From: Sorangium cellulosum
Lineage (GTDB): Bacteria; Myxococcota_A; Polyangia; Polyangiales; Polyangiaceae
Direction of reading: 5' to 3'
Length of the DNA: 43,964 nucleotides
Assembly (NCBI RefSeq): GCF_001589285.1
Contig: NZ_JEMA01000783.1
Span: 1-43,964 of the forward strand
Shown piece by piece: positions 41-39,827 of this stretch. How positions within the stretch are numbered: the stretch's first letter is position 1; each line of letters starts with the position of its first letter. A program made the position numbers and the translations under genes. The notes under the pieces are model-generated. The model searched no databases and was not told the DNA's origin. It saw only the letters and a program-made list of their open reading frames with translations.

Positions 41-1318
41 ATGCAGGCGCAGGGGCATGTGCCGCAGCACGGCGCTCCCGCGCAGTACGGCGTCCCCGCG
101 CGCCCCATGGCGGGGCCCGCTCCGCACGGCGCCAGGCACCCGGCGTACGCGCATTCCCCCGCCGGCTACCCTGCGGTCGTCCGGGTCGCGCGGAGGCCCG
201 ACCCGGACCGGCGGCGGCGCATCGCCGGGCTGTGGCTCTGGGCCAACGGCATCATCGCCGGCACGGTCCTCAACGTGATCTTCACGCTCTTCGGCGTGCT
301 CGGGTCCGGGGGGAGCATGCTGAGCGCCATGGTCGTCGGAGCGCTCTTCGCGTTCCCGCCGCTCGTCATCTACCTGTTCGTCCCGATGATCATCGATCGG
401 TACGATCCGGAGCCGTGGTGGTGCCTGCTGATGGCGTTCCTCTGGGGCGCGCTCGCGGCGACCGGCTTCTCGATCCTGATCAACACCGGCGTTCACGTCG
501 GCGTCTCCAGCAGCTTCGGCGAGCCGCTGGGAGAGCTCGTGAGCGCGTCGGTCAGCGCGCCGTTCGCGGAGGAGCTGTTCAAGGGGCTCGGCGTGTTCGG
601 CTTCTTCTACTTCCTGCGCCGGGAGTTCGACGGCATCGTCGACGGCATCATCTACGCCACCTTCTGCGCGCTCGGCTTCGCCGCGGTGGAGAACGTCCTC
701 TATTACGCGCGCGCCTCGATGCAGGGCAGCGACGTGCTCGCCGGCACCTTCGTCCTGCGAGGCGTGTTCACGCCCTGGCTTCACCCGCTGTTCACGTCGA
801 TGACCGGGATCGGCTTCGGGCTCGCCCGGGAGTCGTCGAAGACGTGGGTGCGCGTCGCGGCCCCGATCGGCGGCTACCTGCTGGGCGTCGCGCTCCACGC
901 GGTGTGGAACTTCCTCCCGACCGCGCTGGGTCGCGCGATGGGGGACCTCTTCATGCCGTGGCTCCTGCTCTGGCTGTGCTTCGTCGCCTCGTTCTTCGGC
1001 ATCATCGTGGCGCTCGTGATCCGCAAGGGCTGGGTGATCCGCGATCATCTGCGCGACGAGGTGGCGCTCGGCATGCTGACCCAGGACGAGCTCGAGCTCG
1101 TCTGCTCGCCGATCGGCCGGCTCCGGTGCACCCTGGGCTGGCGCGGCGCGACAGGGCGGAGCTTCATCCGCGCCGGCGCGCGCCTCGCGCTCAGCAAGTG
1201 GCACACGGCGCGCGCGATGGAGGGGCGGAACCGGACGCTGAGCGCCGACTTCATCGGCCCGCTCCGCGACGAGATCGCGCAGCTCAGGCAAGAGCTCCTC
1301 GCCCGCGCCCCCCGCTGA
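41..1318 (+). CDS. PrsW-family intramembrane glutamic protease
   Basis: Polytopic membrane protein of about 425 residues with the PrsW motif set: EE-x2-K at about 177-181 (FAEELFKG), F-x3-EN at about 213-218 (FAAVEN), a membrane His in WLHPLF at about 248, and LHAVWN at about 285-290. PrsW proteases cleave anti-sigma factors or other membrane substrates within the bilayer, and the conserved Glu and His residues are the presumed active site. The first 60 residues are a His/Pro/Ala/Gln-rich cytoplasmic tail, followed by about eight hydrophobic segments and a charged C-terminal tail. The frame is open to the left window edge without a stop, and no clear ribosome site precedes this ATG, so the true start may lie upstream. 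No anti-sigma/sigma pair lies beside it, so the substrate is unknown. It converges on the acetyltransferase gene. Confidence 0.85.
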   Translation: MQAQGHVPQHGAPAQYGVPARPMAGPAPHGARHPAYAHSPAGYPAVVRVARRPDPDRRRRIAGLWLWANGIIAGTVLNVIFTLFGVLGSGGSMLSAMVVGALFAFPPLVIYLFVPMIIDRYDPEPWWCLLMAFLWGALAATGFSILINTGVHVGVSSSFGEPLGELVSASVSAPFAEELFKGLGVFGFFYFLRREFDGIVDGIIYATFCALGFAAVENVLYYARASMQGSDVLAGTFVLRGVFTPWLHPLFTSMTGIGFGLARESSKTWVRVAAPIGGYLLGVALHAVWNFLPTALGRAMGDLFMPWLLLWLCFVASFFGIIVALVIRKGWVIRDHLRDEVALGMLTQDELELVCSPIGRLRCTLGWRGATGRSFIRAGARLALSKWHTARAMEGRNRTLSADFIGPLRDEIAQLRQELLARAPR

Positions 1319-5656: not shown

Positions 5657-8581
5657 ATGATTCGCAGAAGGATCTCAGGGGTAGTCGCAGCGCTCGTGGC
5701 ACCGCTGTGCTGGGGGGCCACGGCCCTCGCCCAGGGCGAGCCCGGCGCGGCCGCGCCGCCGCCTGGAGGCGCGGGGATCCCGGCCGACGCCCCGGCGGCG
5801 GAGAACGCCGCCGGGCTCGACGAGCCGAGCCCGGCGCGCCCACCCTCCGCCGGGAAAGGCGTCGTATGGGGCGTCGTCACGGACTCCGCCACGAAGGAGC
5901 CCGTCTTCGACGCCCAGGTGTCCGTCATCGGGACGAAGCTCAAGGTCATCGCGGATCTCGACGGACGGTATCGCCTGGAGCTCCCGCCAGGGAGCTACCG
6001 GCTGCGGGTCTGGTACGAGGCGTACAAGCCTCAGCGCGTGCAGGACGTGCGGGTGACCGCCGGGCAGGTGGTCCAGGTCGACGTCGGCCTCGATCCGGAT
6101 CAGCAGGTCGAGGAGGTCGTCGAGGTCGAGTTCGAGCCGGAGCGGGCGAGCGTCGCGGCGCAGCTCCTCATCCGGAAGAACGCGCCCCACGTGGGCGACG
6201 CCGTCGGCGCGAAGGAGATCGCGAAGACGCCCGATCGCAACGCCGCGGAGGCCGCGAAGCGCGTCGTCGGCGCGACCGTGATCGACGGCAGGTACGTCTA
6301 TGTGCGCGGCCTCGGCGATCGCTACACGAACGCTCTGCTGAACGGCGCGCCGCTTCCGAGCCCCGAGCCCGACCGGCAGGCCGTCCCGCTCGATCTCTTC
6401 CCCTCGCTCGTCCTCAGCGACATCACCATCGTCAAGACGTTCACGCCCGACGTCCCCGGCGACTTCGTGGGCGGTTCGGTCCAGATCAACACGCGCGAGC
6501 TCCCGACCAGGTTCCTCCTCCAGGCATCGCTCTCGCTTGCTGCGAACACCCACAGCACGTTTCGAGATCGCCTGACCTACTCCGGATCGAGCACCGACTG
6601 GCTCGGGATCGACGACGGCGCGCGCGCGTTGCCCGGCGAGATCCCCGAGTACAAGGTGGCCCGCGGGATCCGCCGGCCGGACGGCGCGCTGATCACGAGG
6701 GACGACATCGCGGTCTACGGGAGGGCGATCAACTCGTCGATGGCGACCCGCCGGTCGTTCACGCCGCCGAACGGGAGCGGCAGCGTCGTCGTCGGTGACA
6801 CCCTGAAGCTCCGCGGCGAGCAGCGCCTCGGCTACCTCGCCACGCTGAGCTATGGCCGGAAGTTCGCCCCGCGCGCCGACGAGATCAGCCGGACTTACGC
6901 GTTCGATCCCACGAGCGAGAGCGGCCTGAGGCAGCTCAACGACTCCGCGGTGGACAGCATCCGTGATCAGGTGTCCTGGGGGAGCTTCGCGAGCGTCACC
7001 TACACGCCCGATCGGGATCACAAGGTGATGCTCACCGCGCTCCACAGCCGCTCGTCGGACGACGTGGCGCTTCAGTCGAGGGAGGTCATCGAGGAGAGCG
7101 GCGGGGCGGTGTACCGCGACACGCTGCAGCGCTTCGTCTCCCGGGCGCTCACCCTGGGCCAGCTCTCGGGGGAGCATCGCATCGCGGCGCTCGGGAACGG
7201 CACGCTCGACTGGAAGGCGTCCGTCTCCCGGGCGACCTCGGACGAGCCCGACGCGAGGGAGAACGTCTACGCGAGGGACGACACGAGCGGCGCCTGGTCC
7301 TGGGACGACGGCACGCTGAGCGGATCGCACGTCTTCATCGATCTGGCAGACACGAACTACGGCGGGCAGCTCTCTTACGCGCTGCCGCTCATCCGTGGAG
7401 ACGCCCCGACCCGCCTGAAGCTTGGCGGCCTGCTGAATTTCCGAAAGCGTGAGTTCGACGCGCGCCGGTTCCGGTTCAAGACGCTCCGGCTCGCCGACAC
7501 GACCGTGCTGCGACAGGAGCCGGGCCCGCTGTTCTCGGACGAGAACATCGGCACCCTCTTCGAGCTGGAGGAGACCACACGCGACACGGACGACTACACG
7601 GCCAGCACCGATCTCTACGCGGGCTACGTGATGACCGACACCCACATCACGCGGTTTCTCCGGGCGATCCTCGGCGCCCGGATCGAGGCCTCCATGCTGT
7701 CGATGGATGTCCCGGATGATGCCGAGAAGAATATCGACAACAAGGACGTGGATGTCTTGCCCGCGGCCAGCCTCGTGTTCAAGACGAGCCCGAAGTCGAA
7801 CCTCAGGTTCAGCGTGACCAGGACGCTCGCTCGACCCCAGCTCATCGAGCTCAGCCCGGCGCTGTCCCAGCCAGGATACAGCGCGCGGGAGGTGGAAGGC
7901 AATCCCGACCTGGAACGGACGCGCGTGGTGAACGGCGACCTCCGGTTCGAGCTTTTCCCGACCACCGGCGAGGTGGTGGCGACCAGCATCTTCTACAAGC
8001 ACTTCGAGGACCCGATCGAGGAGATCATCAAGCCCAGCAGCGGCAAGGGGAGGCTGAGCTGGACGAACGGGGACAGCGGCTATGTCGCGGGTCTCGAGCT
8101 CGAGATCAGGAAGAGCCTGGACTTCATCGACCCGCTCCTGCGGGACGTCACCGTGCTCGGCAATGTCACGCTCGCCACCTCGGAGGTCGAGATCAACCCC
8201 GAGCCGGACGAGGGAGGGATCGCGATCCAGAGCACCGCGACGCACCCGCTCCAGGGGCAATCCCCCTTCGTCGTCAACCTGGGGCTCGACTACAGCGGCG
8301 AGTCGACCGGCACGAGCGCCCGGCTCCTCTACAACGTGTTCGGCGCCCGGCTCCGGACGGTGGGGAAGAACATGCCGGACGAGTACGAGCAGCCGCGGCA
8401 CCAGATCGATGTCACGGTCGCGCAGCGCCTCGGCGAGCACGTCGAGCTGAAGCTGGCCGGCGAGAACCTCATCGATGCTCCCGTCCGCGTCACGCAGGGC
8501 AAGGAGAGCACGGACGACAACATCGTGCTCGACTACCACGTTGGTACGACCGTTACCCTGAGCGCGGCACTGACTTATTGA
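5657..8581 (+). CDS. TonB-dependent outer-membrane receptor with N-terminal carboxypeptidase-regulatory-like domain
   Basis: A 974-residue receptor. A signal peptide (1-26, cleavage after ATALA-Q) is followed by a Pro/Ala-rich spacer. Next comes a carboxypeptidase-regulatory-like beta-sandwich (about 69-147: GVVTDSATKEPVFDAQVSV...DLDGRYRLELPPGSYRLRV) and a Val/Glu-rich stretch (about 150-160) that could act as TonB box. The plug domain (about 164-280) ends in DFVGGSVQINTRE, and a large beta-barrel runs to a terminal Tyr, as is usual for outer-membrane insertion. The domain order resembles SusC-type receptors, which import large ligands with a partner lipoprotein. AAGGGA precedes ATG 5657. The substrate cannot be told from sequence. 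It follows tonB-exbB-exbD-exbD and is followed 81 bp later by a surface-type lipoprotein. Confidence 0.9.
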   Translation: MIRRRISGVVAALVAPLCWGATALAQGEPGAAAPPPGGAGIPADAPAAENAAGLDEPSPARPPSAGKGVVWGVVTDSATKEPVFDAQVSVIGTKLKVIADLDGRYRLELPPGSYRLRVWYEAYKPQRVQDVRVTAGQVVQVDVGLDPDQQVEEVVEVEFEPERASVAAQLLIRKNAPHVGDAVGAKEIAKTPDRNAAEAAKRVVGATVIDGRYVYVRGLGDRYTNALLNGAPLPSPEPDRQAVPLDLFPSLVLSDITIVKTFTPDVPGDFVGGSVQINTRELPTRFLLQASLSLAANTHSTFRDRLTYSGSSTDWLGIDDGARALPGEIPEYKVARGIRRPDGALITRDDIAVYGRAINSSMATRRSFTPPNGSGSVVVGDTLKLRGEQRLGYLATLSYGRKFAPRADEISRTYAFDPTSESGLRQLNDSAVDSIRDQVSWGSFASVTYTPDRDHKVMLTALHSRSSDDVALQSREVIEESGGAVYRDTLQRFVSRALTLGQLSGEHRIAALGNGTLDWKASVSRATSDEPDARENVYARDDTSGAWSWDDGTLSGSHVFIDLADTNYGGQLSYALPLIRGDAPTRLKLGGLLNFRKREFDARRFRFKTLRLADTTVLRQEPGPLFSDENIGTLFELEETTRDTDDYTASTDLYAGYVMTDTHITRFLRAILGARIEASMLSMDVPDDAEKNIDNKDVDVLPAASLVFKTSPKSNLRFSVTRTLARPQLIELSPALSQPGYSAREVEGNPDLERTRVVNGDLRFELFPTTGEVVATSIFYKHFEDPIEEIIKPSSGKGRLSWTNGDSGYVAGLELEIRKSLDFIDPLLRDVTVLGNVTLATSEVEINPEPDEGGIAIQSTATHPLQGQSPFVVNLGLDYSGESTGTSARLLYNVFGARLRTVGKNMPDEYEQPRHQIDVTVAQRLGEHVELKLAGENLIDAPVRVTQGKESTDDNIVLDYHVGTTVTLSAALTY

Positions 8582-10842: not shown

Positions 10843-10999
10843 GTTCACCTCGAGGGCAGACCCCCGGTCCCGATGGATGCGAGCTCGTGCAGAGGCCACC
10901 ATACCGAGGAAACAAGCACAACTTGTGCCGAACCTGGCGATCGGGGCGAGCTGGATTTCTCGGGACTTGCGCCCAGGGAAACCATGAACGTCGTGTAAG

Positions 11000-11020
11000 T
11001 GGCCGGCCACTGGCCGGCCA
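11000..11020. promoter_or_regulatory. Tandem palindromes TGGCCGGCCA upstream of the sigma54-activator gene
   Basis: Two identical 10-bp perfect palindromes, TGGCCGGCCA at 11000-11009 and 11011-11020, are separated by one base. Their centres are 11 bp apart, about one helical turn. They end 28 bp before the ATG of the FHA/AAA+ regulator and about 160 bp upstream of the divergent zinc-ribbon gene. The arrangement suits an operator bound cooperatively on one DNA face, possibly by the Fis-type domain of the regulator itself. This is a pattern-based proposal. Confidence 0.4.
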
Positions 11021-11048
11021 GGTTCTTGAACGGGTAAGATAGCTCCTG

Positions 11049-12443
11049 ATGGACCACTCCACTGTCCGCGTCTCGGTTCCCCCCGAGCCCTCGGTTGCCG
11101 AGCCCGTGCCCGGCATCGTGCTGATTTTCTCGGGGAATCAGCCGCGATGCGCGCCGATCCCGCTGGACGGCGGCGCCGTCGTGGTGGGCCGCGGTGGCGT
11201 GGGCGGCGTGCCCCTCATGGACGACTCGCTGATGTCGCGGCGGCACGCGCGCATCGCGTACGACGGGACCGCGTGGACCGTGGAGGACCTCGGCAGCACC
11301 AACGGCACCTCGGTCAACGGCGAGCCCATCCGCGGCGAGGTCCGGCGGGAGGCGATCCAGGTCGTCGGCGCGGGGACGTCGGTGTTCCTCGCGCTGCCGG
11401 ACATCCGGTGCTTCGCGCGCGGGGGCGTGCGCATCGAGAAGGAGAGCGTCCTCGGGCCCAGGCTCCAGCAGACCTACGACACCATCGTGCGCGCGGCGGC
11501 GGCGGGGGACAGCCTCCTCGTGACGGGCGAGAGCGGCACGGGCAAGGAGCTCGCGGCGCGCGCCTACCACGAGGCGGGGCCGCAGGCGCGCGGCCCGTTC
11601 GTGGCCGTCAACTGCGCGGCCATCCCGGAGGGGCTGGCCGAGCGGCTCCTGTTCGGCGCCCGCCGCGGCGCCTACTCCGGCGCGACGCACGACACCGAGG
11701 GCTACGTGCAGGCCGCCCACGGAGGCACGCTCTTCCTCGACGAGGTGGCGGAGCTCGACGCGGCGGTCCAGGCGAAGCTGCTGCGCACGATCGACACGCG
11801 GCAGGTGCTCGAGCTCGGCGCTGTCGCGCCTCACCCGGTGCAGATCAGGATCTGCGCAGCGACACACGACCTGCGCGCCCGCGTCGCCCAGGGCCGCTTC
11901 CGTGACGACCTCTATTATCGCATTGGCCGTCCCGAGGTCCGGCTCCCGCCGCTTCGCGAGCGGATCGAGGAGATCCCCTGGCTGCTCGCGCAATGCGCGA
12001 AGGCTGTCGGAGCGGCCTTGCACGGCGCGACGCCGACGATTCACCATTCGCTGATCATCGCGTGCGCGCTGCGCCGCTGGCCAGGGAATCTGCGCGAGTT
12101 CGTGGGCGAGGCGCGGCGCGCGGTGACGCGCGCGCTCGACGAGGGGCGCCCATCGGTCGAGGCCAAGGATCTGGACCCGCTCGCGGGCGTCGGGCTCGGC
12201 CCGGAGTCGCTCGACGCGCACGCCCGGCAGACATCGAGCGATCTTCGACCGACGCCGGCGCGCGCGAGCCAGGCGCCGCCCGAAGATGAGATCGCCGGGG
12301 CGCTTCGCCTCGAGCGAGGCAATGTGTCTCGCGCGGCCAGCAGGCTCGGCGTGCACAGGAACCGAATTCGACGCTGGCTGGAGAAGAATGGCGTGGATCG
12401 TTCACATTTCGCCGAAGGGGGCGAGCTGCCCGATAACGACTGA
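11049..12443 (+). CDS. FHA-domain sigma54-dependent transcriptional activator
   Basis: A 464-residue enhancer-binding protein. An N-terminal FHA domain (about 24-116) has the phosphothreonine-binding pattern GRG...SRRHA...STNGTSVNG. It is followed by an AAA+ domain (about 130-365) with Walker A GESGTGKE (160-167), Walker B GGTLFLDE (225-232) and arginine-finger region RFRDDLYYRI (283-292). The sigma54-contact loop is GAYSGA (207-212) instead of GAFTGA. A C-terminal Fis-type helix-turn-helix (about 405-445, VSRAASRLGVHRNRIRRWL) completes it. There is no receiver domain, so the input is presumably phosphorylation of a partner by a Ser/Thr kinase sensed through FHA, a theme common in myxobacteria. 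The ATG at 11049 lies just behind a double palindrome. I found no convincing -24/-12 promoter nearby, so its targets are unknown. Confidence 0.9.
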   Translation: MDHSTVRVSVPPEPSVAEPVPGIVLIFSGNQPRCAPIPLDGGAVVVGRGGVGGVPLMDDSLMSRRHARIAYDGTAWTVEDLGSTNGTSVNGEPIRGEVRREAIQVVGAGTSVFLALPDIRCFARGGVRIEKESVLGPRLQQTYDTIVRAAAAGDSLLVTGESGTGKELAARAYHEAGPQARGPFVAVNCAAIPEGLAERLLFGARRGAYSGATHDTEGYVQAAHGGTLFLDEVAELDAAVQAKLLRTIDTRQVLELGAVAPHPVQIRICAATHDLRARVAQGRFRDDLYYRIGRPEVRLPPLRERIEEIPWLLAQCAKAVGAALHGATPTIHHSLIIACALRRWPGNLREFVGEARRAVTRALDEGRPSVEAKDLDPLAGVGLGPESLDAHARQTSSDLRPTPARASQAPPEDEIAGALRLERGNVSRAASRLGVHRNRIRRWLEKNGVDRSHFAEGGELPDND

Positions 12444-12742
12444 GACGTGCCCGTCGACGTATGCACAAGCACAGAAGCGGGTCAATGTCCGCGCCGCCTC
12501 GCTGGCAGCGTTTGCTCGCCTCGCCTCGGTCGGATGACGAAGTCGCGCCGGGCGTAGGCGGTTGAGCCCGACAGGGCGGCCGTTCCATACATTGCCTCCA
12601 GCGACCGCTGAGTCCCTCCACGTCATTGGAGCCTATGCGACGGCGCGCTCTCTCAGCGATGACGAGCCCGGTCGTCGCAGGGTTGCCTTCATCCGGCGAC
12701 GCGGCGCCAGGCTCGATTCGACCTTATGGCATGTACAGGGTC

Positions 12743-12771
12743 TTTACAGGCCCCGTTATGCAGGATGTAAT
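12743..12771 (+). promoter_or_regulatory. Sigma70-type promoter in a gene-free region
   Basis: TTTACA (12743-12748), one mismatch from TTGACA, is separated by 17 bp from TGTAAT (12766-12771), one mismatch from TATAAT. This is the best housekeeping-type promoter match I found in the window. Transcription would start near 12778 and run toward the GRAS gene at 13479, 700 bp away, with no good gene in between. A small hairpin (CCTCG at 12784, CGAGG at 12796) lies just after the expected start. Confidence 0.45.
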
Positions 12772-12935
12772 AGGGTGTGTAAGCCTCGTCCCCGGCGAGG
12801 TGCTGTCACGGTCACGGTCAAGTCAACGTGTCCGGCGCGCGCGGCGCGCCAGGTCGAAGCGCGCGGTGCGCCATCGCGACGCGCCATGAAGAGAGCTGCG
12901 GTGATGTGCCCGGTATGCTGCGCCTCGCGCTCGGT

Positions 12936-13045
12936 CCGTGTGTTCGAGTCCACGCGCGCGTCTCGCGGCCCGTGTGTTCGAGTCGGCGCGCGCGTCTCGC
13001 GTCGCGCGGCCCGCGTGCTCGAGTCCGCGCGTGTCGCGCGTCGGG
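12936..13045. repeat. Degenerate tandem repeat, three copies
   Basis: Units beginning CCGTGTGTTCGAGTC start at 12936 and 12970, and a variant CCGCGTGCTCGAGTC at 13011, each followed by a run of CG dinucleotides and a GTCTCGCG-type tail. The first period is 34 bp and the second 41 bp, the latter through an extra GTCGCGC. The block lies in the gene-free stretch upstream of the GRAS gene. The conserved core GTTCGAGTC looks like a tRNA T-loop, but no T-stem pairing is present. Confidence 0.6.
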
Positions 13046-13478
13046 GGATATCCACCTGCGGCGGGGCCGCGGCGCCCCCGTCGGACGCCCACGAGCGCCT
13101 ACGTCTGCCGCCAGGAGGCTCGCGTGGCGCGAGGGACACGAGGAAGGGGGCGCGACGCAACAAGGCCATCTTGGGCTTGACCGAGCGGGCGGCTTCATCG
13201 ATGAACAGGTACAGGGAGTTGCCTCTCGAGCCCTCGTGCGAGCTCCGATCCTACCGCGTCATGGGCGGGCGCCGCGCTTCGTGGCCCCGCCCGTGCGCTC
13301 CGCAGCGGAGCGCCTGCTCCCCTGCTCGCCGTCGGGCTATCCCGCAACGACGTCAGCAAACATTGAAACCCCCGGCTCCTGCGAGGTGGTCGACGTCATG
13401 CGTTCGCGCTTGAAATCGGCTGATCGCGGAGAGCCCAGCCAGGACGGCGGGCCTCCTGGTTGAACAGCCCTGGACACC

Positions 13479-14795
13479 ATGACCGCGATCCGTAGATACG
13501 CATCGTCCGAAGAGGCGCCTGTAGGCCCGGGAACGCACATCGAGGGGCCCGCGAGCGGCGCCGCCTCGGGTCCCGGGGCAGGGCAGCAACCGAGCTCGGG
13601 AACCCGGCAGACGCACTCCCGACGTCGGCCGTTCCTGAGCCGCCTCCTGGCGGCGGGCGAGGCGATCGACGTGGGAGATCACGAGCGCGCGCGGGCCCTC
13701 GTGGAGGGCATCCTCCGGACAGAGCCCGATACGGGGGATGCCTCGGAGCGCATCTCGGGGGTGTTCGGCCGGGCGCTGCTCGCCCGCCTGGACGGAGATC
13801 GCTCCGGCGATGGCAACCTGTACCTGCGCAGCGCCGGTCCGCGGGACATGCTCGCGGCGTTTCAGCTCCTCGTGCACGCGACGCCGCTCATCCGGTTCGG
13901 CTACCTCAGCGCCAACGCGGCCATCGTCGAGGCGTTCCAGGGTGAAGACGAGGTCCATGTCATCGACATCGGCGTCGGCGGCGGGACGCAGTGGCCTTTC
14001 CTGCTACATCGGCTGGCGTCGCGCCCGGGCGGCCCGCCGCGGGTCCGCCTCACCGGGATCGACCTGCCGTGCCGGGGCCCTGATCCCGAGCAGCGGCTGC
14101 GCTGGGCGGGCGCGTTCATCGGGGGTTGGGCGGAGCGGCTGAACGTCCCCTTCGAGTTCCACGGCGTCGCCTCCTCGGTGGAGCGCGTCGACTGGACCCG
14201 TATCGCGGCGCGCTCCGCGGCGCCCATCGCCGTGAACGCCGCCTTCGCATTGCACCACGTGCCGGACGCGTCGGTGCACCCGACCGCGAACCGCGACACA
14301 ATTCTCACCAGGATCCGCGGGCTGTCGCCGCGCGTGCTGACGCTCGTCGAGCCGGACGTGGAGCACAACGCGCTCCAGTTCCTCCCGCGGCTGTCCGAGG
14401 CGATCGCCCATTACTATGCGGTATTCCAGGCGCTCGAGGCGCTGCTCCCGCCGCACATCGCCGCGCGCGAGACCATCGAGCAGGTCTTCTTCGGGCAGGA
14501 GGTGATGAACGTTGTGGTGGGGGAGGGGGCGGCGCGGGTCGAGCGGCACGAGCGCCGGGGCGCCTGGCAGCGCCGCCTCCGCATGAACGGCTTCGAGCCG
14601 CTGCGCGTCTCGCCCCACGAGCCGCTGGTGCGCGGAGGGCTCCGCCTGAACCAGGGGTTCGACGTCCGGACGGACGAGCCGGCGCTCCTGCTCATGCGCA
14701 ACGGGGTGTCCATCGTGGCCGCGTCGGCGTGGCGGCCGCGGCAGGTCCCGCCGCCCTCGCGGTTCATCTCCGGGCTGTTCCGCCGGGCCGGCTGA
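13479..14795 (+). CDS. Bacterial GRAS-family protein (Rossmann methyltransferase-like fold)
   Basis: A 438-residue protein matching the plant GRAS domain along its whole length. The leucine-rich helical region (about 53-110) contains LLAAGEAIDVGDHERARALV. The VHIID motif is VHVIDIGVGGGTQWPFLL (159-176), followed by RPGGPPRVRLTGID (182-195). Next come VNAAFALHHVPD (252-263) and TLVEPDVEHN (288-297). The PFYRE-like region includes FFGQEVMNVVVGEGAARVER (337-356), and the SAW region runs from AWQRRLRMNGFEPL to the closing SAWRP (362-420). GRAS domains are Rossmann-fold, related to methyltransferases. Plant members act in gibberellin signalling and development, while bacterial members are thought to bind or modify small molecules. 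The glycine-rich GVGGGT suggests that a cofactor pocket could be retained. The first 50 residues are a disordered Gly/Ser/Pro-rich tail. It stands alone, behind about 1 kb of noncoding DNA. Confidence 0.88.
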   Translation: MTAIRRYASSEEAPVGPGTHIEGPASGAASGPGAGQQPSSGTRQTHSRRRPFLSRLLAAGEAIDVGDHERARALVEGILRTEPDTGDASERISGVFGRALLARLDGDRSGDGNLYLRSAGPRDMLAAFQLLVHATPLIRFGYLSANAAIVEAFQGEDEVHVIDIGVGGGTQWPFLLHRLASRPGGPPRVRLTGIDLPCRGPDPEQRLRWAGAFIGGWAERLNVPFEFHGVASSVERVDWTRIAARSAAPIAVNAAFALHHVPDASVHPTANRDTILTRIRGLSPRVLTLVEPDVEHNALQFLPRLSEAIAHYYAVFQALEALLPPHIAARETIEQVFFGQEVMNVVVGEGAARVERHERRGAWQRRLRMNGFEPLRVSPHEPLVRGGLRLNQGFDVRTDEPALLLMRNGVSIVAASAWRPRQVPPPSRFISGLFRRAG

Positions 14796-15888: not shown

Positions 15889-16884
15889 TCAGCGCGTGAC
15901 GAGCACCTTGAGGGCGCCTGGCGCCGCCGCGGCCTGCAGCGCGTCCGCGGCGCGCTCGAGCGGGAGCCGGGCCGACACAAGGGAGCGGACGTCGATGCTG
16001 CGGTCCTCGAGGGCGCGCAGCGCGGGCTCGAACAGCCCGCAGCGAGACCCGACGACCGTGATCTCATGGACGACGAGCTCGGCGAGGTGGACGCTGGAGA
16101 GCCCGGCCACCGTGCTCTTCAGCACGAGCGTGCCGCGCGGTCGGGTCGCGCGGACCGCCCTCGCGAACCCCTCGGCCGAGCCCGTGGCCTCGACAACGAG
16201 CTCGGCCGGCTCGCCTGCCCACGCGCCCCGCCGAGGCGCCGCACCGGCGTCGGCCTCGCCCGCGGCCTCGGCGAGAAGGAGCTCGGTCGCGATGCCCCGC
16301 GCGCGCAGCAAGGCGAGCTTCTCCTCGTGCTTGCCGACAGCGAGGACGCGGGCGCCCGCCTGCTGGAGCACCTGCGCGATGAGCAGGCCGAGCTTCCCGT
16401 CGCCGAACACGAGCGCGGACGTGCCCGGCGCCACGCGCACCTGCTCCAGGATCGCGAACGCCGCCGCGAGCGGCTCCGTGAACACCGCCTCCTCGTCGTC
16501 GATGCGGTCGTCGACCGCGTGGAGGTTCGCGACGGGCACCGCGACGCGCTCCGCCAGCGCGCCGTCCGCGCCGACGATGCCCATCACCGTGCGCGCCGGG
16601 CAGTGCCGCCCCAGCCCGCGCGCGCAGGTGCTGCAGCGGCCGCACGCGAAGTTGATCTCTCCCACCACGCGGCGACCCCGCCACGCGGCAGGCCCGTCCA
16701 CGACGTCGCCGACGAACTCGTGCCCGAGCGTGCCATGGAAGCCCATGTACCCCCGGACAATCTCGAGATCCGTGTTGCAGATGCCCGCGCACCGCACCTC
16801 GACCACGGCCATGCCGGCCGTGGTCGAGGGGGGCTCGCGGTCGACGACGCGCGCGACAGTGCCGTCCCAGACCAGCGCGCGCAC
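15889..16884 (-). CDS. Zinc-dependent medium-chain alcohol dehydrogenase
   Basis: A 331-residue medium-chain dehydrogenase/reductase. Catalytic zinc ligands are visible as Cys in CAGICNTD, His-Glu in GTLGHEFVG, and the later Glu in VFTEPLAAAF. The structural-zinc lobe is CGRCSTCARGLGRHC, with four Cys. The Rossmann segment is ALVFGDGKLGLLIAQVLQQAGARVLAVG, atypical in having GDGKLG rather than GxGxxG, so the choice of NAD or NADP is unclear. Such enzymes oxidise alcohols or polyols; the substrate cannot be assigned. The start is GTG 16884, only 9 bp after the gltD stop, so it is probably co-transcribed with gltBD and translated from the same message. That pairing is unusual and has no obvious metabolic reason. 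Confidence 0.85.
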   Translation of the reverse strand: MRALVWDGTVARVVDREPPSTTAGMAVVEVRCAGICNTDLEIVRGYMGFHGTLGHEFVGDVVDGPAAWRGRRVVGEINFACGRCSTCARGLGRHCPARTVMGIVGADGALAERVAVPVANLHAVDDRIDDEEAVFTEPLAAAFAILEQVRVAPGTSALVFGDGKLGLLIAQVLQQAGARVLAVGKHEEKLALLRARGIATELLLAEAAGEADAGAAPRRGAWAGEPAELVVEATGSAEGFARAVRATRPRGTLVLKSTVAGLSSVHLAELVVHEITVVGSRCGLFEPALRALEDRSIDVRSLVSARLPLERAADALQAAAAPGALKVLVTR

Positions 16885-16893
16885 GGACGAGCC

Positions 16894-18325
16894 CTAGCTC
16901 GCCGCCAGCGACAGCCGGCGCTTCGCCGGCTGCATCAGGTACGCGTCGACCGCCTCCGCGGCCTTGCGCGCCTCCGCGATCGCCCAGACGACGAGGCTCT
17001 GGCCGCGCGACATGTCGCCCGCGGCGAAGACGCCCTCCACGCTCGTGCGCCCGCCCGGGGCCTTCACGTTGCCGCGCTGGTCCATCGCCACGCCGAGCTG
17101 CTCGATCAGGCCCTCGCGCTCGGAGCCGACGAAGCCCATCGCGAGCAGGACGAGCTCGCACGGGATCTCGAAGTCGCTCCCCGGGACGGGCACGAACTTC
17201 CCGCCCTCCAGGATCACCCGCGTCGCCTTGAGCGCGCGGACGTGCCCGCGCTCGTCCCCGAGGAACGCCGTCGTCGACACCGACCAGTCCCGCTCGCCGC
17301 CCTCCTCGTGCGAGGACGACGTGCGGAGGATGAGCGGCCACGCCGGCCACGGGTTCGTCAGCGAGCGCTGCTCCGGCGGGCGCGGCAGGAGCTCGAGCTG
17401 CGTGACGTGCGCCGCGCGGTGGCGGTGGCTCGTGCCGAGGCAGTCCGAGCCGGTGTCGCCGCCGCCGATGACGACCACGCGCTTGCCCGTCGCGAGGATC
17501 GCCTCGCTCTCCGGGATCACGTCGCCGGCCACCCGCTTGTTCTGCTGGGTCAGGAAATCCATCGCGAAATGGACGCCCTTCAGCTCCCGGCCCGGCACCG
17601 GCAGGTCGCGCGGCCGGCGCGCCCCGCCGCAGAGCACGATGGCGTCGTACTGCTCGCGCAGCGCGTCGCCGGTGATGTCGACCCCGCAGTGCACGCCCGT
17701 GCGGAAGGTCACCCCCTCGGCCTGCATCTGCTCCATGCGCCTGTCGATGAGGTGCTTCTCCATCTTGAAATCGGGGATGCCATACCGGAGCAGGCCGCCG
17801 ATGCGGTCGTCGCGCTCGAAGAGGGTCACGTCGTGCCCCTTGCGCGCGAGCTGCTGCGCGGCCGCGAGGCCGGCGGGCCCCGATCCGATCACGGCGACCT
17901 TCTTGCCCGTGCGCTGCTTCGCGATGACCGGCACGATCAGGTTCCGCTCGAACGCGCGATCGGCGACGCCGCGCTCGACGTTCTTGATCGTGACAGGCGT
18001 GCCCTCGATGTTCAGCACGCACGCCGCCTCGCACGGCGCCGGGCACACGCGCCCGGTGAACTCGGGGAAGTTGTTCGTCGCGTCGAGCGCCGCGATCGCC
18101 TCGGGGAGGCGCTCGCGGAACATGTGATCGTTCCAGTCGGGGATCAGGTTCCCGAGCGGGCAGCCGTCGTGACAGAACGGGATGCCGCAATCCATGCACC
18201 GCGCTGCCTGATCGCGCAGCTCGGGGTCAGGGATCGGGAGCTCGAACTCCTGCCAGTCGTTCAAACGCTCGGAGACGGGCCGCTTTTTGATGTCGACCCG
18301 CTGGATCTCGAGGAAGCCTCGTACC

Positions 18326-18333
<8 letters not shown>
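16894..18333 (-). CDS. gltD: Glutamate synthase [NADPH] small subunit
   Basis: A 479-residue beta subunit that passes electrons from NADPH through FAD and iron-sulfur clusters to the large subunit for glutamate formation from 2-oxoglutarate and glutamine. The N-terminal cysteine-rich region has [17 protein letters not shown] and CPAPCEAAC for 4Fe-4S clusters. The FAD-binding motif [15 protein letters not shown] lies at about 146-160 and the NADPH motif [13 protein letters not shown] at about 287-299. The [19 protein letters not shown] segment near the C terminus is the conserved FAD-contact region. The start overlaps the gltB stop by 8 bases, so translation is coupled. Length is normal for the family. 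Confidence 0.97.
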
Positions 18334-22930
<4,597 letters not shown>

Positions 22931-23010
22931 GGTGCTGACTTCACACGCGCGTAGCACATGTGGCACAAGGATTGGAGCCCTAGTTAATGCGCCGCGCCAG
23001 CTCCGGCGGA

Positions 23011-31143: not shown

Positions 31144-32811
31144 GTGACCGGAGAACACGGAGCGTCGATCTTGAGGGACACGCCGACACAGCTTGGGCTC
31201 GGCCGATATCGCCCCATTGCGAAGCTCGGCCGCGGCGGAATGGCCGACGTCTTCCTCGCGATGGCGCACGGGCCGGCTTCGGTGAACAAGCTGGTCGTCG
31301 TCAAGCGGCTTCGCAGCTTCGCCGACGAAGAGGATCGACACGTCCTCATGTTCATGGACGAGGCCAAGCTCTCGGCGCGCATGAACCACCCGAACGTCGT
31401 CCAGACCTACGAGGTCGGCAGCGATCAGGACGGCTACTTCATCGTGATGGAGTACCTCGACGGGCAGCCGCTCAAGCGCGTCATGAAATCGGCCGCCGAC
31501 CGGGAGCCGGGCACGGGCGGGCTGGTGCGCGCCACATGGCTCCGGATCGTCGCCGAGGTGCTGCGCGGGCTGCATTACGCGCACGAGCTCTGCGAGTTCG
31601 ACGGCAAGCCGCTCGGCATCGTCCATCGCGACGTCTCCCCGCACAACATCTTCATCACGTACGACGGCGCGGTGAAGCTCGTCGATTTCGGCGTGGCCAA
31701 GGCCGCGGTCAACTCCTCCCGCACCGAGAGCGGGACCTTCAAGGGCAAGCTGACCTATATGGCGCCCGAGCAGGTCACGGCGGGCAAGTCGGTGGATCGC
31801 CGGGCGGACATCTTCGCCGTGGGCGTCGTGCTGTGGGAGCTCCTCGCCGGGCGACGCCTGTTCGAGGGCGACCAGATCAGCGTGATGCACCAGCTCCTCC
31901 TCGGGAAGCTCCCGCGGCTGTCGACGGTGGTCCCGGGGATCCCGATCGCGCTCGACCAGATCGCCGCGAAGGCCCTCGAGCGCGAGCCGTCGAAGCGCTT
32001 CTCGACCGCGCAGGAGATGTGCGATGTGATCGAGAGCTACCTGCAATGGTCGGGCGAGGACGTCCGCAGCGAGTTCCTCGGCGCGTGCATGCGGGGGATC
32101 TACGCGGAGAGCAGGGCGACGATTCGCCACCAGATCAAGGCGCAGATCGAGCGGGTGGCCAGGACGTCGGGCCTGAGCGAGCCCTCCGGCCCGGTGACGC
32201 TCAGCGGCATCGGTATCGCGATGGGGCCGTCGAGCTCGCGCTCGGGCTCGGGGTCGGCGAGCCGGCTCCCCTTTATCGGGGAGCCGAGCCACCCGGGCGT
32301 CGAGCCGCATTCGGGCGCCGAGCGGTATTCCGGCCTCGCGCGGCATTCGGGCATCGAGCGGCCGAGGACGCCCGTGAGCGATTCGGTGAGCCTGCGCGCG
32401 ACGGCGATGCCGGCGCCCCCCTCGCGGCGCGGGTTCCTTGTCGGAGCGTCCGGGCTGATCGCGCTGGCCGCGGTGGCCGGAGGCGCGCTCTATGCCGCGA
32501 GCCAGCGCGCGCCCGTCGCCGCGCCCGCCGCGGCCGCGCCCCAGGCGGCGGTCACGGAGGCTGTCGAGAAGAAGCCCGACGAAGTCCCCAAGGCGAGCGT
32601 GGCGATCGCGAGCGACCCGCCGGACGCGATCGTGAGCTGGAAGGGCAAGACGCTCGGCAAGACGCCGCTCAAGACCGAGCTGCCCGTGGGGACACAGGTC
32701 GTGGTCGTGTCGAGGTCCGATTGCTTCGATGAGACGATCATGCTGACGCTCGCGCCCGCGGAGACCGTCGAGCGCTCCGTCAAGCTGCGGCCCACGAACT
32801 ACGCGAAGTAG
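31144..32811 (+). CDS. Transmembrane Ser/Thr protein kinase with PEGA-like C-terminal domain
   Basis: A 555-residue Hanks-type kinase. The N-terminal kinase domain (about 15-300) has the glycine loop LGRGGMADVFLA, the ATP Lys in VVVKRL, the catalytic loop HRDVSPHN, DFG in LVDFGVAKA, and the APE region YMAPEQ. A Ser/Pro/His-rich linker (about 350-425, with repeats of the type HSGxER) leads to one membrane helix (RGFLVGASGLIALAAVAGG). The C-terminal domain, VAIASDPPDAIVSWKGKTLG followed by KTPLKTELPVG, is PEGA-like and would lie outside the membrane. HRDVSPHN replaces the common HRDLKPEN and is typical of myxobacterial kinases. GTG 31144 has GAGGTGG just upstream; an earlier GTG (31138) or TTG is possible. 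It could supply phospho-Thr signals to FHA proteins, but this is inference. Confidence 0.92.
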   Translation: MTGEHGASILRDTPTQLGLGRYRPIAKLGRGGMADVFLAMAHGPASVNKLVVVKRLRSFADEEDRHVLMFMDEAKLSARMNHPNVVQTYEVGSDQDGYFIVMEYLDGQPLKRVMKSAADREPGTGGLVRATWLRIVAEVLRGLHYAHELCEFDGKPLGIVHRDVSPHNIFITYDGAVKLVDFGVAKAAVNSSRTESGTFKGKLTYMAPEQVTAGKSVDRRADIFAVGVVLWELLAGRRLFEGDQISVMHQLLLGKLPRLSTVVPGIPIALDQIAAKALEREPSKRFSTAQEMCDVIESYLQWSGEDVRSEFLGACMRGIYAESRATIRHQIKAQIERVARTSGLSEPSGPVTLSGIGIAMGPSSSRSGSGSASRLPFIGEPSHPGVEPHSGAERYSGLARHSGIERPRTPVSDSVSLRATAMPAPPSRRGFLVGASGLIALAAVAGGALYAASQRAPVAAPAAAAPQAAVTEAVEKKPDEVPKASVAIASDPPDAIVSWKGKTLGKTPLKTELPVGTQVVVVSRSDCFDETIMLTLAPAETVERSVKLRPTNYAK

Positions 32812-37417: not shown

Positions 37418-38770
37418 TCACTGCTTCGGCTTGTCGCCGCCGAGCAGCTCGCCGATGGCGGGGGCGCCGCCCGGGCCGAGGGCCTGCGTGCTCTCGATGA
37501 GGTGGATCAGGAACTGGCGGTTGTCCGTCACCGAGAGGTTCTGGAGCTCGAGCGCGCCGATGCGGTCCTCGGGGGTGAAGTAGGCCTCCTCGACCTTCTC
37601 CATCGAGAGTTTGTCCGGCGCATAGGCCATGTAGTCGGCGCGCGTGTTGGTGATGCTGTAGTCGTCCCCGCGGCGCAGCTCGAGCGTCACCTCGCCGGTC
37701 ACGCCGGGCGCGATCCAGCGCGAGAGCGCGTCCTTCAGCATCATCGCCTCGGGGTCGTACCACTTGCCCTCGTAGAGCAGCCGCCCGAGGCGGCGGCCCT
37801 GGGTGAAGTACACGTCGAGGGTGTTCTCGTTGTGGATCGCGGACAGCAGCCGCTCGTACACGGCGTGGAGGAGGGCCATGCCCGGCGCCTCGTAGATGCC
37901 GCGGCTCTTCGCGTCGATGACCCGGTTCTCGATCTGGTCGCTCATGCCGAGCCCGTGGCGGCCGCCGATGCGGTTGCACTCGACGAACAGCTCGAACAGC
38001 GAGCCGAAGCGCTTGCCGTTGATGGTGGCCGGGACGCCGCGCTCGAAGCCGAGCGTCACCGTCTCGGCCTCGATGGCGACCTCCGGCCGGAAGGACGCGA
38101 CGCCCATGATCGGGTGGACGATCTTGATCCCGGTGTCCAGGCGCTCGAGGTCCTTCGCCTCGTGCGTCGCGCCGAGCACGTTGGCGTCGGTGCTGTAGGC
38201 CTTCTCCGTCCCCATGCGGTAGGGCAGCCCGTGGCGCTCGAGGTACTCGCTCATCTCCTTGCGCCCGCCGAGCTCACCCACGAATTTCGGGTCGAGCCAG
38301 GGCTTGTAGATCTGGAGCGAGGGGTCGACGAAGATGCCATAGCGATAGAACCGCTGGATGTCGTTGCCCTTGTGCGTGCTGCCGTCGCCGAAGACGTGGA
38401 CGTCGTCGTCGCGCATCGCGCGCACGATCGCGGTCGTGGTCACGGCGCGGCCGAGCGGCGTCGTGTTGAAGTACTTCTTGCCGCCCGTCGAGAGGTGGAA
38501 GGCGCCGCACTGGATGGCGAGGATGCCCTCGCGGACGAGCGCCTCGCGGCAGTCCACCAGCTTCGCGGAGACCGCGCCGTGCTGCAGGGCGATCGGCGGG
38601 ATGTCGCCGGGGGAGTCCTCGTCCGGCTGCGCCAGATCGGCGGTGTACGCATGCACCTTGAGCCCGTTGCGCGTCAGCCACGCCACCGCGCAGCGCGTGT
38701 CGAGCCCGCCCGAGAAGGCGATGCCGAGGTGGGTGCCGGCCGGGGGAAGGGAACGGAAGATCCTGCTCAT
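37418..38770 (-). CDS. argG: Argininosuccinate synthase
   Basis: A 450-residue enzyme joining citrulline and aspartate with ATP, the penultimate step of arginine synthesis. The ATP-binding P-loop is [11 protein letters not shown] near residue 19. The citrulline/aspartate region includes [20 protein letters not shown] and [18 protein letters not shown], and later [15 protein letters not shown] and [14 protein letters not shown]. This is the longer E. coli-type argininosuccinate synthase (about 447 residues) rather than the 400-residue type found in many bacteria. ATG 38770 gives the standard N terminus; the open frame upstream is noncoding. No other arg gene lies within the window, so arginine genes are dispersed here. 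Confidence 0.97.
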
Positions 38771-38875
38771 GGCGGCGCAGCATAGCCACATCGCCCGCGC
38801 ACACGCGAGCGTAGATCGCGCGGCGCGGGAGCCCCGGACGGCGGCCGCGGAGCGCGCCGCCCGGTCGGCGGCGTA

Positions 38876-38934
38876 GCGCGGCCGCCCGCTGTCGTCGCGT
38901 GGCCGCCCGCTGTCGTCGTCGCGCGGCCGCCCGC
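38876..38934. repeat. Short GC tandem repeat upstream of argG
   Basis: A unit of 21 bp, GCGYGGCCGCCCGCTGTCGTC, occurs at 38876-38896 and 38897-38917, then after three bases a partial copy GCGCGGCCGCCCGC at 38921-38934. It lies between the divergent argG and the acetyltransferase gene, and may affect spacing of their promoters. Confidence 0.65.
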
Positions 38935-38999
38935 GGGCGGGTCGGACTAGGATGGAGGGCTCCTTCTCACGCCATCCTGCTCGCCGATGAGGTGCACCC

Positions 39000-39827
39000 A
39001 TGCCGAAGCTGTCGTACGCCGAGATTGCCCGGATCGAGGAGCGCCGCCTGGCGCTCGGCACCGCCGCCGTTGTCGCCTGCGCGGAGCCCATCGCGGGCGG
39101 GTGGATGGCCTTTGATGGCGAGGGCTCCTGGGGCAACTTCGCCGTGGGGCTCGGGCTCGATGGTCCCGTCTCCAGCGAGGAGCTCGATCGGCTCGTCGCG
39201 TTCTACACGACGCGCGGCGCGGAGCCGCAGATCCAGGTCTGTCCGTTCGCGCACGAGTCGCTGGTGCGCGGCCTCGCCGAGCGGGGCTTCGTGCTGCGCG
39301 AGTTCGAGAACGTGCTGGCGCGCGAGATCGCGACGGACGAGGACCTCCGCGCGCTGCTGACGCACGGCGGCCCCGACGGGCTCGAGATCGTGCGCGTCGA
39401 CCCCGCGGACGAAGCGCAGGTCCGGGTGTTCATCGAGGTCTCGACGAGCGGCTTTCGCCCCGAGGGAGAGCCGATCACGCCGGCGCTCTTCGATGTCACC
39501 CGCCGCCTCGTCGCGCACCCGGGTTGCGACTCGTACCTGGCGCTCCTCCACGGCGAGCCTGCCGGCGGCGGCTGCGTGGAGGTCTCCGGCGAGGGCGCCG
39601 CGCTCTTCGGCGCCTCGGTGCTCCCCCGCTTCCGCGAGCGCGGCATCCAGCAGGCGCTCATCGTCCGCCGGCTGGAGCGGGTGCGCGACAGGGGTTGTCC
39701 CCTGGCGTGCATCAGCGCGAGCCCCGGCATCCCCACGGAACGCAACGCCATGCGGCTCGGGTTCTTCATGGCGTACAGCAAGGGTGTCTTCATGCGGCGG
39801 AGCGAGAATTCGCAGCAGTCCACCTGA
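39000..39827 (+). CDS. GNAT-family N-acetyltransferase
   Basis: A 275-residue protein whose C-terminal half (about 130-265) fits the GNAT fold. It has the acetyl-CoA-binding segment [21 protein letters not shown] (about 200-220; R-x-x-G-x-Q/A type pyrophosphate loop) followed by an amphipathic helix and [19 protein letters not shown]. The N-terminal part (about 1-115) is a related degenerate GNAT-like half with [15 protein letters not shown]-type sequence, so it may be a tandem GNAT. It would transfer acetyl to an amine of an unknown acceptor. It is divergent from argG but unrelated by obvious pathway. The ATG is placed at the first Met, which begins a family-like helix. Confidence 0.8.

Follow-up and report, generated by a model that had tools for sequence, protein, structure and literature searches.

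What does a full-length relative of the plant GRAS regulators do in a bacterium? The question is raised by a gene of Sorangium cellulosum on contig NZ_JEMA01000783.1, which was analysed as a stretch of 43,964 nucleotides (the window). The original prediction, made from the letters alone, had recognised a complete GRAS protein standing by itself, and had suggested a retained methyltransferase-type cofactor pocket. To our knowledge, no substrate is known for any bacterial GRAS member. The analysis points to the metabolism of amino acids: in several bacterial lineages the GRAS domain is fused to, or directly abuts, an aminotransferase. That bacterial GRAS proteins exist and have a methyltransferase fold was known; the link to amino-acid enzymes appears to be new.

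The gene (Table 1) is real, intact and under purifying selection. Its only Pfam family is PF03514, at 296.8 bits against a cut-off of 27 (E 2.8e-88), and residues 54-419 align to positions 3-374 of the 374 in the profile, that is, to the whole of it. The claim of a full-length GRAS protein is thereby borne out; the Pfam search did not place the protein in an ordinary methyltransferase family with GRAS score absent, and its predicted structure has the GRAS fold. VHVIDIG (159-165), RVERHE (353-358) and SAW (416-418) supply the VHIID, PFYRE-region and SAW motifs in order, and the motifs that had been quoted, VHVIDIGVGGGTQWP and ASAWRP, are present in the translation. When the protein was compared with the PDB by phmmer, plant GRAS proteins accounted for 15 of 16 distinct sequences found at E <= 1, with SCARECROW (5b3g, 4.5e-49) at the top; identity to plant SCARECROW and SCL1 proteins is about 32-36%. 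The closest protein-database match, 92% identical, comes from a relative, Sorangium sp. So ce296, where the gene already bears the name "GRAS family protein". G+C at the three codon positions (0.75/0.53/0.90) has the pattern of a coding gene. Across three Sorangium genomes the protein is 85-93% identical and its flanks are conserved, with NG86 dN/dS values of 0.038/0.303, 0.057/0.352 and 0.077/0.298, or about 0.12, 0.16 and 0.26. Open reading frames called in the kilobase upstream show neither the coding G+C bias nor comparable conservation, which upholds the description of a solitary gene preceded by about 1 kb of non-coding DNA.

Does the protein retain a cofactor site? Conservation was read from an alignment of 47 rows (33 from clade 1, to which the window protein belongs, 11 from clade 2 and 3 from plants). 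All three glycines of motif I (G165, G167, G169) are kept in 44/44 bacterial rows, whereas the plant rows read D, M/S and G there and have lost two of the three in 3/3 cases. Rice SCL7 keeps a glycine at the first of these positions in the alignment, so erosion in plants was uneven. In the structural model the motif sits at the end of strand 158-164, the place of the class I methyltransferase glycine loop, and D195 offers the acidic residue that ends strand 2 in class I enzymes dependent on S-adenosylmethionine (SAM, or AdoMet). The best non-GRAS folds for GRAS are likewise SAM-dependent methyltransferases, and the glycine loop does look like a retained candidate AdoMet pocket, as had been proposed. 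Nine residues are invariant in 47/47 rows (P136, G169, Q171, L258, H259, H260, E291, R353 and W363), while N113, Y115, E235, N253, H296 and H311 are shared across the bacteria and differ in at least some of the plant rows. Four histidines, H259, H260, H296 and H311, are thus conserved in the bacterial rows. The putative SAM roles of single residues are assigned from their places in the predicted class I topology.

The partners carry most of the argument. Clade 1 was grouped into 11 lineages: Sorangium; Hymenobacteraceae; L043+L045; L050; L046; L052; L048; L047; L049; L022+L023; and L006 (L numbers denote loci). A class I/II aminotransferase is fused to or abuts GRAS in 5 of the 11, and an L-amino-acid oxidase gene precedes it in one more, L048; the five with neither partner beside GRAS are Sorangium, L047, L049, L022/L023 and L006. 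The association is closest in Hymenobacteraceae, where GRAS forms the C-terminal part of a 717-764-amino-acid frame at 14/14 loci (L030, L032-L042, L044, L079) and a HisC-type class I/II aminotransferase makes up the N-terminal part (by Pfam and NCBIfam in L041, by NCBIfam in L030). In a survey of the Botryobacter family all 22 GRAS matches, from 150 genomes, lie in open frames of 716-774 amino acids, a count that concerns frame size only. Separately, both Pfam domains occur in 48 of 120 proteins among the matches listed (627 found). In public records the Hymenobacteraceae fusions, proteins P0022 and P0046-P0092 among them, go by the name of histidinol-phosphate transaminase or of GRAS-like transcription factor. 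At L043, L045, L046, L050 and L052 aminotransferase and GRAS are distinct genes that all but touch. Taking as start the in-frame ATG nearest each junction (other starts exist), the aminotransferase stop overlaps the GRAS ATG by 4 bp in L043, L045 and L052, and a single base separates them in L046; in L050 the order is reversed, and the aminotransferase ATG begins on the last base of the GRAS stop. For L045 the aminotransferase was recognised from the HisC profile and from 57-61% identity to the L043 enzyme. In L048 a flavin amine oxidase gene with one in-frame stop inside it lies 2 nt upstream of GRAS; its best PDB matches are L-amino-acid oxidases (9rum, 1.7e-61). The lysine that binds pyridoxal phosphate (PLP) is kept in 7/7 linked aminotransferases compared. 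The HisC profile finds 7-11 matches in each of five genomes, from which the chance of an accidental adjacency is estimated at less than 1% per locus. Upstream of the aminotransferase-GRAS pair of L043 lies a gene for a 185-residue protein (1829-2386) with a below-cut-off match to the ACT domain.

In clade 2, a profile built from seven linked aminotransferases matched at just one locus, L059, out of the 28 named, of which some are short; there an enzyme of the diaminopimelate aminotransferase type lies about 1 kb from GRAS. Nine genes were scanned from the surroundings of GRAS at seven clade-2 loci and at L014; they include a TonB receptor, CinA, an ABC permease and a transketolase, and no partner recurs among them. 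The clade-2 GRAS gene of Myxococcus (L054) is overlapped at its end by a CinA-family gene, and L054 and L111 both have SpoIIAA-like genes close to GRAS (flanking genes at 10972-11523 and 11606-12010 of L054, and 7656-8036 of L111).

Which aminotransferase is it? The fused domain passes the TIGR01141 (HisC) cut-off of 276.55 narrowly, at 277.9 and 290.8 bits. Pontibacter and Botryobacter each have a second HisC that scores better (365 bits, against 280 and 291) and lies between histidinol dehydrogenase and imidazoleglycerol-phosphate dehydratase, so the fused copy in these two is not that of the histidine operon. Its first PDB match is a HisC and its second 4r2n, a putative phenylalanine aminotransferase; among the matches listed, its relatives include P0105, P0106 and P0107, which we take to be HisC-type aminotransferases with chorismate mutase domains. 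Together these hint at aromatic amino acids. The aminotransferases of L046 and L052 belong to a different subfamily, nearer GntC and below the GntC cut-off. A separation from histidine synthesis is harder to maintain for other members: in the L045 and L050 genomes no other HisC match scores as high as the GRAS-linked copy (313.2 vs 265.6 and 291.5 vs 237.5), and in the L043 genome the linked and the other HisC are level (290.4, 292.4). The linked enzyme of L043, L045 and L050 may thus serve histidine synthesis, which weighs against a dedicated paralogue. As for Sorangium, its nearest HisC-type aminotransferase, at 43-44% identity to that of L050 and up to 46.6% to that of L045, is unlinked; the idea of an obligate partner was dropped, with the gene in 3/5 Sorangium genomes and GRAS in 5/5.

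A transaminase and an oxidase share one product, a 2-oxo acid, which therefore suggests itself as the GRAS substrate; given that the SAM motif is intact and two adjacent histidines are conserved, methylation of such an acid is the simplest scheme. The first step, from an amino acid to its 2-oxo acid, would fall to a PLP aminotransferase or, in a single lineage, to a flavin L-amino-acid oxidase. Residues conserved throughout the family (His-His, Glu, Arg and Trp) would let GRAS hold this acid, perhaps by way of a metal ion, and GRAS would then transfer a methyl group, most likely onto the carbon beside the keto group, after which the aminotransferase could restore the amino group. Known 2-oxo-acid methyltransferases that are paired with an aminotransferase offer a precedent for methylation on carbon. 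From sequence, the proposal that bacterial GRAS uses SAM to methylate a 2-oxo acid derived from an amino acid has a chance only just short of even. By homology it may extend to Sorangium, where the partner would be an unlinked aminotransferase.

How bacterial and plant GRAS are related bears on all of this. A tree of 114 rows left out fragment proteins (P0005, P0009, P0025, P0026, P0031, P0034) and duplicate or partial loci (L002-L005, L008, L031); a second kept 74 of those rows, without near-duplicates and without L007, L010, L052, L078 and L080, which are long or odd. Bacterial GRAS falls into two groups, and clade 1 brings together the window protein, Hymenobacteraceae, Rhodothermales, Polyangia, Frankineae, Herpetosiphonaceae, Armatimonadetes and Undibacterium. 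The tree called for by the original prediction groups the window protein with plants: the three plant rows fall inside clade 1, with 100/98 support for clade 1 plus plants, and a 36-row subset holding plants, Sorangium and Pontibacter has 96/93. Keeping plants out of the clade-1 bacteria costs 22.2 units of log-likelihood (approximately unbiased (AU) test, p 0.027, an optimistic value, the constrained clade having been chosen after the first tree was seen). The sister of the plant rows is weakly placed (supports 92/69 and 85/74). Transfer from plant to bacterium is thus disfavoured by the tree. That the Sorangium gene came by horizontal transfer from a plant, bringing a plant-type regulatory function, could be argued from its identity to SCARECROW and SCL1; it is nonetheless very improbable, since plants nest in a broad, deep-branching bacterial clade, the cofactor motif is more complete in the bacterial copies, and a published study (PMC9942845) infers transfer from bacteria to plants, with an ancestor among soil bacteria. 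If the 2-oxo-acid scheme is right, plant GRAS would have derived from such an enzyme by losing the cofactor site and keeping the remainder as a regulatory scaffold. The fullest version, in which plant GRAS, DELLA included, descends from a metal-assisted 2-oxo-acid carbon methyltransferase, with Sorangium keeping a stand-alone form and the Pontibacter fusion a two-step machine in one chain, is on the unlikely side.

Could the methyl group go elsewhere than to carbon? An amino-acid-related acid might instead be methylated on nitrogen, as histidine is by EgtD, or on carboxyl oxygen, as 3-isopropylmalate is by CysG and BelI. These enzymes are among the best non-GRAS folds and stand above SgvM in Z, and in two genomes the linked aminotransferase tops the HisC matches, which would suit a histidine-related substrate. 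CysG has a His-His-Asp metal site with Arg22 and Tyr33 (PMC11408123), and GRAS has an invariant His-His after strand 4, with R103 and Y115 as candidate counterparts at similar spacing. The metal-dependent carboxyl O-methyltransferases have about 230 residues and lack the GRAS N-terminal part and extra helices, and their third ligand D191 is without an assigned counterpart in GRAS. Pairing with transaminase and oxidase alike points instead to the shared 2-oxo acid, and nitrogen or carboxyl methylation is somewhat unlikely. The 2-oxo-acid carbon methyltransferases SgvM and MppJ are 11-18% identical to GRAS; the metal ligands of SgvM are H244 and H296 (PMC10502145), for which GRAS histidines are at most candidate equivalents. 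The profile for 2-ketoarginine methyltransferase (TIGR04543) had matches at E <= 0.001 in 150/198 genomes and over cut-off in 0/198.

A regulator without catalysis, sensing a ligand or SAM as a bacterial counterpart of the plant co-regulators, would fit the regulatory role of the plant homologues and the sigma-54 activator gene with an FHA domain beside the window gene. The full glycine loop in 44/44 bacterial rows, the enzymatic nature of the partners, fusion included, and GRAS as the sole Pfam domain of the window protein all speak for catalysis, and such a sensor seems improbable. A still poorer prospect is methylation of a gibberellin-like or other terpenoid or polyketide molecule, with the aminotransferase link as a side branch. 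Sorangium is rich in secondary metabolism, which counts in its favour, but no such genes were present among the Pfam-scanned neighbours, a chosen part of all neighbours. A methyltransferase fold and a link to the gibberellin response have been published (Zhang et al., 2012, in so far as three later papers, PMC4279901, PMC4811876 and PMC10699852, recount it).

How much of this goes beyond earlier work? Zhang, Iyer and Aravind reportedly proposed in 2012 that bacterial GRAS proteins are small-molecule methylases and predicted their use of AdoMet. The window protein shares with those proteins the Pfam family and the Rossmann methyltransferase fold (Zhang, Iyer and Aravind 2012, Bioinformatics 28:2407, as cited in the same three papers); the fusion and coupling to aminotransferases, the oxidase neighbour and the proposed 2-oxo-acid substrate class are additions. 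No report of a GRAS-aminotransferase fusion or coupling was found in the literature searched, with subscription papers, the 2012 one included, outside that search. Plant GRAS proteins (SCARECROW, SHORT-ROOT, SCL3, SCL7 and the DELLA protein RGA) are regulators, whereas the window protein is a predicted enzyme; the three plant rows, unlike the bacterial ones, have lost E235, N113, Y115 and H311 besides the two glycines. The fused domain resembles HisC-type PLP aminotransferases in its match to TIGR01141 and differs from HisC proper as a second paralogue outside the histidine operon in Pontibacter and Botryobacter. In clade 2, 15 of the 31 PDB sequences matched by L070 (phmmer) are plant GRAS proteins (E up to 0.0017); none of the 31 is a non-GRAS methyltransferase, the other 16 being cystathionine beta-synthase at E 0.8 or worse.

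Bacterial GRAS is as rare as the original prediction held. Over the family cut-off it occurs in 17/377 genomes of the window's phylum and in 1/301, 1/149, 2/198 and 1/396 genomes of the phyla of L047, L048, L043 and L046, each tally including the genome at its centre; in the phylum of L047 a second genome matches below the cut-off. Nearer to the window, a match was found in 6/6 same-genus genomes (counting its own; a contig end truncates one of the copies) and in 10/39 relatives overall. A scan by two peptide patterns, of limited sensitivity, gave 54 loci, one genome per species, from Myxococcota, Bacteroidota, Bacillota, Actinomycetota and others. GRAS was found in 0/14 control genomes, and none of 11 pattern matches in viral contigs encodes a GRAS relative. 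Genomes G343 (L015, L026) and G260 (L016, L025) each carry two GRAS genes about 5 kb apart, one frame of each pair much longer than the GRAS domain.

Around the window gene, the sigma-54 activator carries its FHA domain N-terminally and lies directly upstream of the non-coding stretch. A pattern search of the window with a sigma-54 consensus found no such promoter site before GRAS; its one hit, with two mismatches, is at 32042-32058, against a chance expectation of 2.31. Convergent with GRAS run a zinc-type alcohol dehydrogenase gene and then the small and large subunits of glutamate synthase, whose two genes are 92-96% identical in three Sorangium genomes. The argininosuccinate synthase-like protein has a 572-residue frame and modest Pfam scores.

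Table 1. Features of the window (pLDDT, predicted local distance difference test).
Feature	Position	Strand	Basis
PrsW-family intramembrane protease	41..1318	+	
TonB-dependent receptor-like protein	5657..8581	+	
Sigma-54 activator with FHA domain	11049..12443		
Non-coding stretch upstream of GRAS gene	12444..13478	.	codon bias absent, low conservation
GRAS-family protein gene	13479..14795	+	438 aa, ATG start, Pfam and protein-database matches
N-terminal 48 residues, likely disordered, variable among Sorangium copies	13479..13622	+	pLDDT < 50 for residues 1-48; alignment
GRAS domain, residues 54-419	13638..14735	+	PF03514 profile 3-374
N113-L-Y115, candidate cofactor-side residues	13815..13823	+	N113 44/44, Y115 43/44 bacterial; changed 3/3 plant
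Motif I D163-I-G-V-G-G-G169 (VHIID region), candidate AdoMet glycine loop	13965..13985	+	G165, G167, G169 in 44/44 bacterial rows
D195, end of strand 2, candidate ribose-binding acid	14061..14063	+	D or E 44/44 bacterial; strand 188-195 in model
E235, candidate adenine-side acid	14181..14183	+	43/44 bacterial rows; G or S 3/3 plant
N253 and L258-H259-H260 after strand 4, candidate active site	14235..14258	+	LHH 47/47, N253 44/44 bacterial; strand 250-255
E291-P-D-V-E-H296, end of strand 5, candidate catalytic or metal site	14349..14366	+	E291 47/47, H296 44/44 bacterial; strand 286-292
H311	14409..14411	+	43/44 bacterial rows; Tyr in 3/3 plant rows
R353-V-E-R-H357 (PFYRE region)	14535..14549	+	R353 invariant in 47/47 rows
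SAW motif S416-A417-W418	14724..14732	+	alignment; strand 410-420 in model
Zinc-type alcohol dehydrogenase, glutamate synthase small and large subunits	15889..22966	-	
Argininosuccinate synthase-like protein	37418..39136	-	

In plants the GRAS family governs growth, root patterning and symbiosis. The gene fusion and the closely packed gene pairs of its bacterial relatives narrow the role of the ancestor to a short list of testable substrates, and for the conserved pocket that remains in plant GRAS, these partners suggest what it may once have held.
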